The notes beneath the pieces are model-generated. The model made no database searches and had not been told where the DNA came from. It saw only the letters and a program-made list of their open reading frames with translations. 41,044 bases of DNA, from the NCBI GenBank assembly GCA_017856235.1, contig JAFMFH010000008.1, positions 1-41,044 of the forward strand, read 5' to 3'. Shown one piece after another: positions 33,242 to 34,245 of the stretch. The stretch's first letter is position 1, and every line of letters starts with the position of its first letter. Both the position numbers and the translations under genes were made by a program. This DNA comes from Flavobacteriaceae bacterium. GTDB lineage: Bacteria; Bacteroidota; Bacteroidia; Flavobacteriales; Flavobacteriaceae.

Positions 33242-33254
33242 AATTAAAAATTAG

Positions 33255-33327
33255 AGGGCAATGGAGGACTCAAACCCCCATCTGAAGAGCCGTAATCTTC
33301 TGTTCTATTCAGTTGAACTAATTGCCC
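33255..33327 (-). tRNA. tRNA-Arg (anticodon ACG), divergent
   Basis: A full cloverleaf can be drawn on the minus strand. The acceptor stem is 7 bp (GGGCAAT/ATTGCCC), the D stem GTTC/GAAC, the anticodon stem GAAGA/TCTTC with loop TTACGGC (anticodon ACG at 33291-33293), and the T stem GGGGG/CCTCC with one G-U pair. CCA is not encoded. Odd points: position 19 is A and position 56 is U, where nearly all tRNAs have G19-C56; position 15 is A and 48 is U, a Levitt-pair variant; and the discriminator base 73 is U, while arginine tRNAs normally have A or G. A20, an ArgRS identity element, is kept. Confidence 0.87.
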
Positions 33328-33409: not shown

Positions 33410-33475
33410 ATGAACTGTAACTGCCCAAAATGTAATTGTAAAGAATCATGTAGTTGTACATGTTGCGACTGCTAA
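33410..33475 (+). CDS. 21-residue metallothionein-like cysteine-rich peptide
   Basis: An ATG-to-TAA frame encodes 21 residues, nine of them cysteine (positions 3, 5, 8, 10, 14, 16, 18, 19 and 21). They form CxC units (CNC, CNC, CSC) and a CCDC end, with no aromatic residue and no histidine; the remaining residues are Asn, Pro, Lys, Glu, Ser, Thr and Asp. This is the composition of a metallothionein, and size and CxC spacing recall fungal copper metallothioneins of about 25 residues, not the longer bacterial SmtA type. Cu(I) or Zn binding is inferred only. The C-rich coding is striking in this AT-rich gap. It is flanked by the divergent tRNA-Arg and the sRNA at 33577. Translation is unproven. 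Confidence 0.6.
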   Translation: MNCNCPKCNCKESCSCTCCDC

Positions 33476-33541
33476 AATTTAAATTTAAATAATTAATAAT
33501 CAAACTCTTACAAAAAGTTATTAACAATTATAAAGAATTTT

Positions 33542-33571
33542 TTGATTAACTTAAATATTTATCTATATTTA
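33542..33571 (+). promoter_or_regulatory. Bacteroidetes-type promoter for the structured RNA
   Basis: TTG (33542-33544) and TATATTTA (33564-33571) are separated by exactly 19 nt, as in the DUF2795 promoter. Transcription is expected to begin near 33576-33579, exactly where the first RNA stem starts. Confidence 0.6.
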
Positions 33572-33576
33572 TAAAT

Positions 33577-33752
33577 ATAAGTTGAAGATACGGCTAAATT
33601 AACCGTAACCTTTGAAGCGAAAGCATAAATTAAACTTATATTGATCTAAACATTAAAAAGTAGTCAAATTAACTACTATTTGAAATAAAATTCAATCGTG
33701 ATTAGAGAATTAGAAAGCCTGACGCACCTAGTGTATCAGGCTTTCGAATTTT
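33577..33752 (+). ncRNA. Probable structured small RNA (about 175 nt), family not recognised
   Basis: No convincing reading frame is present, but a dense set of stems can be drawn. P1 TATAAGTT/AACTTATA (33576-33583 with 33633-33640) closes two hairpins: TACGG/CCGTA (33589-33593/33603-33607, loop CTAAATTAA) and a GC-GAAA-GC tetraloop hairpin (33617-33624). P4 TCTAA/TTAGA (33645-33649/33702-33706) closes AGTAGT/ACTACT (33659-33664/33672-33677, loop CAAATTA) and TTGAA/TTCAA (33680-33684/33691-33695). A terminator hairpin ends it. It has its own promoter. It does not look like tmRNA, SRP RNA, RNase P RNA or a rod-shaped 6S RNA. It might also be a leader of the lipoprotein gene at 33811. Confidence 0.6.
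33713..33752 (+). terminator. Strong terminator hairpin of the small RNA
   Basis: GAAAGCCTGA (33713-33722) pairs perfectly with TCAGGCTTTC (33736-33745). The inner part continues as CAC/GTG around CTA. GAATTTTA follows. It is the most G+C-rich hairpin in the gap and lies 59 nt before the lipoprotein ATG. Confidence 0.7.
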
Positions 33753-33810
33753 ATAACATTAACTTAATATTTCAAATAAAAAAGAATAATAATTTTATTA
33801 AAATTTAAAG

Positions 33811-34245
33811 ATGAAAAATAATTTACTTTTTATATTTATTTCGACTCTATTCATTTCATGTGCAACTGGATCTGGAAATCAAATGGCTGAAACAATTGTT
33901 AACGGAGTTAAAAATGATATTATACTTATTGAAGTTCCAGAAAAGTTGGATGTAATTAGTGATGATGAACAATATGGAAACTTTGAAATTTCTGTCCCTG
34001 AAATAACTAAAGAAGTTTATGATAATGCAAGTATTACTGCATATATTCAAAGAACATATGAAGATGAAAGACCTGATAGGTGGAGTCAACTTCCTCAGGT
34101 ATTTCTTAATTCAGATAGCAGCACATCAGCATATTTAAGCTTTGGAGAAGGATTTATTAGAATATCTTTTCAATCCGAAGAGTCTGTTGAAGAATTATTT
34201 GAATTATTTTCAGGCAGAATATTAAAACTAGTTATAGTTAATTAA
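33811..34245 (+). CDS. Small lipoprotein of unknown function
   Basis: A 144-residue protein with a lipoprotein signal: basic start, hydrophobic run and lipobox FISC with Cys17. The mature part is acidic and shows no family I recognise; it contains ITAYIQRTYEDERPDRWSQLP and a C-terminal LSFGEGFIRISF stretch suggesting beta structure. It is downstream of the structured RNA and its terminator and may be expressed by readthrough, since no good promoter is seen directly before it. Its last 8 nt overlap the convergent pirin gene. Confidence 0.75.
   Translation: MKNNLLFIFISTLFISCATGSGNQMAETIVNGVKNDIILIEVPEKLDVISDDEQYGNFEISVPEITKEVYDNASITAYIQRTYEDERPDRWSQLPQVFLNSDSSTSAYLSFGEGFIRISFQSEESVEELFELFSGRILKLVIVN

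Follow-up and report, generated by a model that had tools for sequence, protein, structure and literature searches.

We find that a frame of only 21 codons in a flavobacterial genome is probably a free-standing gene for a minimal metallothionein which occurs in a flavobacterial lineage as well as in phages. The window, that is, the whole stretch of 41,044 nucleotides which we analysed, derives from a contig of a Flavobacteriaceae bacterium. Bacterial and phage members have in common the core C-x-C-x2-C-x-C-x3-C-x-C-x-C-C-x-C and a length of 20–21 residues, and the carriers are one Flavobacteriaceae genus with small genomes, a sister genus and many tailed phages including T4-type phages. We suggest that the nine thiolates would enclose one cluster of d10 metal ions (some three Zn(II)/Cd(II), or several Cu(I)), whereby metal within the cell would be buffered or sequestered. 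The phage peptide could be encoded by a small auxiliary gene which protects the infected cell or which supplies and buffers metal during infection. Far more tentatively, and with somewhat less than even confidence, we consider that no smaller genetically encoded metallothionein is known and none before it was common among phages, that the flavobacterial copy is fixed beside a structured RNA which perhaps regulates it in response to metal, and that the phage hosts are perhaps Bacteroidota.

The candidate micro-metallothionein is encoded on the forward strand at positions 33410..33475. Its translation is MNCNCPKCNCKESCSCTCCDC, followed by a TAA stop codon, and agrees exactly with the first-pass annotation, which had described an ATG-to-TAA frame of 21 residues with nine cysteines. 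The cysteines lie at positions 3, 5, 8, 10, 14, 16, 18, 19 and 21 and form CxC and CC units; they account for 43% of the residues, and histidine and aromatic residues are absent. The metallothionein-like composition and motifs which had been noticed are thus evident from the sequence. The open reading frame is too short for ordinary gene finders. As a chance control we shuffled the whole window, which has a G+C content of 29.6%, 300 times with its dinucleotides preserved, and counted the cysteines in ATG open reading frames of 15–60 codons. The maximum per shuffle was between three and seven, as compared to nine in the real frame; seven cysteines were reached in two of the 300 shuffles and eight or more in none. 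The earlier statement that such a register of cysteine codons is hard to obtain by chance therefore holds, on account of the shuffles and also of the conservation. Any remaining doubt about the reality of the reading frame is removed by this conservation, as 18 of 25 genomes of the genus have the same nine cysteines. In our view the stretch 33410–33475 is a genuine 21-codon protein gene, which is presumably translated.

A profile search retrieved full-length copies of 21 residues from these 18 genomes (the window's own copy included), and the nine cysteines are identical in all of them. The sample of 397 genomes from the family yielded four matches at E up to 0.1, namely two from this genus and two from the sister genus (G028 and G436), the latter being the sole matches outside the genus in this sample. 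The resulting 20 bacterial copies are 20 distinct DNA sequences. All 180 of 180 cysteine codons remain cysteine codons, every one of the nine positions is TGT in some copies and TGC in others, and the length is 21 residues in every copy. The other residues vary, with a single tyrosine (position 2) as the only aromatic residue, and their dN/dS is about 0.51 (Nei–Gojobori), a rough value as synonymous change is near saturation. We note that the bacterial copies were found by similarity, which biases the set toward conserved ones; among the copies recovered no broken one was seen. Judged from these copies, protein-level selection is acting on the cysteines and on their spacing. The prediction that related genomes keep this spacing is borne out by the 18 genus genomes and the two sister-genus genomes with all nine cysteines, and the contrary outcome which had been named, a DNA that is retained with a broken frame or with lost cysteine codons, was not encountered in the related genomes.

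No full-length match was found in seven of the 25 genus genomes (G003, G008, G009, G014, G016, G020 and G023). These assemblies are 54–87% complete and absence of the peptide is therefore not proven. G009 has a weak partial match (E = 0.26), which we left out of the 18, and in G016 the neighbouring RNA begins some 70 nt into the contig, thus the place of the peptide is off the contig. One copy (L004) has ATA instead of ATG as start codon (L004:1498–1500), which reflects either an uncommon start or an error in the sequence; the other 19 of the 20 bacterial copies start with ATG.

When 60 relatives were searched with the protein, 19 genomes had a match at E up to 10, among them G042, which is not a family member. 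The profile search of 395 genomes from the order gave two matches, the window's own and a weak one of 14 residues in G724 (E = 0.065), and that of 395 genomes from the phylum gave the own match only. The order and phylum samples thus yield nothing convincing as to a wider bacterial spread. Scanning a collection of 84,980 species with a pattern confirmed three loci out of 230 pattern matches; this pattern would miss many phage-type sequences. In plasmids, tblastn with the window peptide found nothing, and a query of this kind may be masked by the low-complexity filter of BLAST.

The same peptide is present in viral contigs. In IMG/VR we count at least 170 loci with a true family member, a lower bound, of which 130 encode 21 residues and 40 encode 20 residues, with 111 distinct peptides. 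The first scan used a DNA pattern which fixes the start codon and the nine cysteine codons only, and at least 120 stretches matched. A stop codon, which the pattern does not require, follows directly after Cys21 in 114 of the 119 genuine matches listed. Taken over 65 distinct viral DNAs, the consensus is approximately M-K-C-N-C-K-V-C-N-C-G-T-S-C-D-C-T-C-C-N-C, and the dN/dS of their non-cysteine codons is about 0.43.

We also left cysteine positions free, every such scan still fixing six cysteine codons. With positions 14, 16 and 21 free, 117 of the 120 matches listed have cysteine at all three, two have histidine in place of Cys16 and one is a chance match. With positions 3, 5 and 8 free, the full cysteine set is kept in 114 of the 120 matches listed, two have tyrosine in place of Cys5 and four arose by chance. 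For the 20-residue form (positions 2, 4 and 7 free), 40 of 44 matches have cysteine at all three positions, the remaining four being chance or junk. There are therefore two exceptions among the true members, the change of Cys16 to histidine (L185 and L187) and that of Cys5 to tyrosine (L279 and L280), each being one peptide in two contigs. Histidine for cysteine is what a metal-ligand site would be expected to tolerate; tyrosine points the other way. Within the 111 distinct viral peptides histidine occurs in two and aromatic residues in none; the two contigs with Tyr5 are outside both the 170 loci and the 111 peptides. Also excluded from the 170 are a poly-cysteine stretch (L170), a chance match (L186), four loci with in-frame stops or poly-cysteine (L193, L194, L220 and L232) and L178, which is a region of a named phage. 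Together with the conservation of the cysteines, the free-position scans strongly support a genuine and selected cysteine-rich micro-gene, as had been proposed.

To what kind of viruses do these contigs belong? Among 20 viral records, picked mostly for length, 13 have a match to Gp23, the T4-type capsid protein, above the curated cut-off and 12 have a terminase above the curated cut-off. Of the other seven records one has a weak match to Gp23 and six have none. We considered that the viral copies might be misclassified bacterial DNA and rejected this in view of the 13 records with Gp23 above the cut-off; single contigs among the seven could be misclassified. By such genes many of the contigs are clearly phages, and the carriers include many tailed phages, T4-type phages among them. 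We compared three capsid proteins with those of named phages. The best match of the first is Flavobacterium phage immuto (56.6%) and that of the second Microcystis phage Mel-JY01, at 44.2% with 55% of the query covered; the third is most similar to an uncultured 462-kb phage (58.3%), followed by the Prevotella Lak phages (39.1%). The similarity of these three capsid proteins hints at Bacteroidota as hosts. The peptide was found in none of six named phage records which were examined over their full length (Flavobacterium phage immuto, Prevotella phage Lak-B5, Microcystis phage Mel-JY01, Rhodothermus phage RM378 and two uncultured huge phages). A tblastn search of the phage collection with the phage-type consensus found nothing, and here as well the low-complexity filter of BLAST may mask the query. 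In a phage-like group (L198, L217, L224 and L234), the 20-residue form has neighbours with signal-peptide-like starts, for example MMKKILLSLLLCSSLFGQ. A Gp23 match is absent in both G1133 and G1136, the two records of this group which were searched.

Metallothioneins are characterised by a low mass, a very high cysteine content with CxC and CC units, few aromatic residues and histidines and a conserved cysteine pattern, and further by the binding of d10 metals in metal–thiolate clusters and by metal-responsive expression or a tolerance phenotype. The window copy agrees with this description in its size, in its cysteine content and units and in its complete lack of aromatic residues and histidine, and the cysteine pattern is conserved across the homologues. 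We infer that nine thiolates within 21 residues, arranged in CxC and CC units and accompanied by almost no other ligand, are just what a single metal–thiolate cluster would need. Conceivably the peptide could instead be a RiPP-like precursor or an inhibitor of a host protein which folds around metal or disulphides, in phages perhaps a takeover or counter-defence factor, as conserved phage proteins of small size are often directed at host targets. We regard this as extremely doubtful, because the peptide has no separate leader segment, no modification enzyme was found among the 13 representative neighbour proteins annotated, and the non-cysteine residues vary widely, which is more in keeping with a peptide that wraps metal than with one that presents a surface for binding.

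How does the proposed metallothionein compare with the known ones? The beta domain of vertebrate metallothionein also has nine cysteines, which hold one M(II)3-thiolate cluster, yet it comprises about 30 residues of a two-domain protein and, by description, its cysteine spacing differs. Mycobacterial MymT is a bacterial metallothionein too and is set apart, again by description only, by its greater length. The domain of the SmtA/BmtA-type proteins (cyanobacterial SmtA and Pseudomonas PflQ2 MT) has about 50–60 residues. These proteins have nine cysteine ligands as found here, but they are longer folded proteins with histidine ligands, whereas our peptide has neither a fold of that size nor any histidine and matches no Pfam family. 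According to PMC7387436, the cluster of PflQ2 MT is Zn3Cys9His, which means that about nine thiolates can hold three zinc ions. The same paper mentions that smtA is accompanied by the divergently transcribed repressor SmtB, a type of sensor which we do not see here, and that MymT is crucial for copper detoxification. Fungal metallothioneins of 26 residues with seven cysteines were once the shortest reported (PMC4755600). The fungal non-yeast copper metallothioneins (Neurospora crassa and Agaricus bisporus; family 8 of Binz-Kagi) are likewise very short and rich in CxC, but our peptide has 20–21 residues, nine cysteines, another spacing with a CC pair and is found in bacteria and phages. A search of the PDB sequences gave no match up to E = 10, and thus none to family 8.

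The family libraries do not know the peptide either. None of the 18 bacterial members matches any Pfam family, three members (two of them viral) have no match in NCBIfam, and none of 57 matches PHROGs. The negative results with Pfam, NCBIfam and the PDB count little, as so short and cysteine-rich a query is hard for such tools. By its design the peptide would work like a metallothionein which is claimed by no known family. Among the matches listed for open PMC papers, titles and beginnings of abstracts mention neither phage-encoded nor similarly small bacterial metallothioneins. The libraries and this literature agree with the view of the first-pass annotation that such a peptide is not yet described in Bacteroidetes.

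If metal is bound, then a complete metal cluster would be encoded in about 63 bases, by a peptide that is shorter than the fungal peptides once called the shortest and yet has more cysteines. Given the peptide's occurrence in at least 170 viral contigs, metal buffering would in this case count among the traits of phages, and that a flavobacterial lineage shares the peptide suggests an exchange of genes between viruses and hosts. Such a gene is invisible to standard gene annotation; scans for cysteine patterns can recover micro-genes which BLAST and profile libraries miss. A first reading from the sequence alone could show neither the viral spread nor the adjoining conserved RNA to which we now turn.

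In the window the peptide gene is preceded by a tRNA-Arg(ACG) gene on the reverse strand (33254..33327), and all of the 18 g1 loci have a tRNA-Arg gene. Behind the tRNA gene lies a gene of the Na/Ca-exchanger family (PF01699), which together with pirin makes up the nearest annotated genes of the window. No zinc- or copper-specific transporter or sensor was recognised among the annotated neighbours. In 12 of the 18 g1 loci (L005–L008, L012–L017, L019 and L051) an open reading frame of 119–122 amino acids with a start like MNIFL ends about 24–31 nt before the peptide; it is not seen in the other six, the window included, and two copies which were scanned match no Pfam family.

Downstream of the peptide, on the same strand, the near-invariant element AAAGTTATTAACAATT (33514..33529) with the palindrome GTTAWTAAC separates the peptide from a structured RNA. 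Its part AAAGTTAT is present in 18 of 18 g1 loci, 25–41 nt past the stop codon; the rest of the element deviates in L009. The element is perhaps an operator, possibly common to the peptide and the RNA. Flavobacterial-type promoters have the motif TTTG-N19-TAnnTTT, and a promoter-like sequence TTTTTG...TATATTT follows on the forward strand at 33539..33570. This loose pattern, which is permissive in A+T-rich DNA, is found in 15 of the 16 loci with the region assembled.

The structured RNA itself (model R1) extends from 33577 to 33707 on the forward strand and is suggested by covariation. In an alignment of 16 sequences 29 base pairs are supported, 19 of them with two-sided changes. The RNA was noticed at window 33577–33707 and at L002, L004, L006–L010, L012–L017, L019 and L051. 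It is present once in the window and is conserved beside the peptide in the genus. With the covariance model, 17 of 100 relatives match and all of them belong to this genus; in 16 of the 17 the RNA adjoins the peptide, the 17th being G016, in which the contig border cuts off the peptide's place. In this genus peptide and RNA are thus inherited together. Two genomes (G006 and G018) have the peptide and no R1 match, the peptide being at most 62 nt from the contig end, and with the covariance model the RNA is absent at both sister-genus copies. Nine of the 17 genomes have two tandem copies of the RNA about 10 nt apart, an arrangement which resembles a tandem riboswitch or an sRNA that has been duplicated. 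At the Rfam gathering threshold only the tRNA of the window is detected and the RNA matches no family, two weak matches nearby being below the threshold. A pseudoknot, tempting by eye, breaks in several sequences and was discarded. The RNA is closed by an inverted repeat resembling an intrinsic terminator (I1, 33702..33756, forward strand; repeat search and alignment). RNA and terminator follow the peptide in 16 of 16 genomes with the region assembled, and the gene past the terminator varies between species. In the window this is a lipoprotein-like open reading frame of 144 amino acids (33811..34245, forward strand), which is not always present and probably is outside the unit.

The gene context in phages is varied. 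The open reading frames which adjoin the peptide at the 170 viral loci can be grouped into 66 clusters, with 27 singletons among them. The commonest neighbour is situated downstream in 55 of the 170 loci and its representative is an FAD-dependent dehydrogenase (phrog_12409); another cluster, upstream in 15 loci, has a holin-like representative. In 163 of the 170 loci an upstream open reading frame of at least 45 amino acids ends at most 60 nt from the peptide or overlaps it, with an overlap in 41. The viral peptide thus lies mostly within gene strings. Since the neighbours vary, the stop codon is immediate and upstream reading frames are close, the peptide behaves as a mobile cistron and not as a fixed leader. 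The frequent dehydrogenase and nine thiols in 21 residues, which could take up an iron–sulphur cluster or buffer redox changes, might speak for a thiol/redox or Fe–S peptide or for a metallochaperone dedicated to one enzyme instead of a metal buffer. We hold this to be unlikely: the neighbour is not constant and the bacterial copies are without the dehydrogenase. Moreover, Fe–S proteins have fewer and more widely spaced cysteines, while the dense CxC and CC spacing found here is typical of metal–thiolate clusters.

In 57 of the 170 viral loci a conserved hairpin starts 9–19 nt past the last cysteine codon, ahead of the FAD-dehydrogenase gene, and in 51 a terminator-like stem lies behind it. 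It was not found within 260 nt in the other 113 loci; eight of the 170 contigs end sooner. This hairpin, the nine cysteine codons in a very short reading frame and the RNA with terminator behind the flavobacterial peptide call to mind the polycysteine leader peptides of mycobacteria, very short cysteine-rich reading frames which are likewise overlooked by gene finders and in which ribosome stalling on the cysteine codons controls a downstream terminator. The function of such a leader depends on one downstream gene, whereas here the context varies and the cysteine spacing is fixed. That the peptide is a cysteine-sensing leader we judge very improbable. The viral hairpin tracks the FAD gene, being present in 66 of 67 loci with this gene (57 with the peptide directly in front and nine without), and it does not track the peptide. 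Nor does a cysteine sensor need a fixed spacing and length or constrained non-cysteine residues (dN/dS about 0.43–0.51), and the close or overlapping upstream reading frames likewise argue against a leader. In the flavobacterial genus RNA and peptide do co-occur, unlike peptide and hairpin in the viruses, which may leave room for such a link there, but the RNA has a promoter-like site of its own and is followed by different genes in different species. A fixed place before a controlled gene with an RNA switch tied to the peptide is not what the viral loci present. We therefore retain the metallothionein reading for the peptide and regard the hairpin before the phage dehydrogenase gene as a separate candidate for a phage riboswitch or attenuator.

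Rfam detected nothing in seven viral loci. The architecture of the viral hairpin is reminiscent of preQ1-I. It consists of the loop ATTCATAGC and a covarying stem of 5 bp, for which 10 arm combinations occur in the 57 loci with all five pairs kept (G-U allowed). On its 3′ side an A-rich linker leads to the terminator-like stem, and pairing would be possible between CTGTG of this stem and CATAG of the loop. An example is found at L072:725–772, and others are in L074, L191 and L199.
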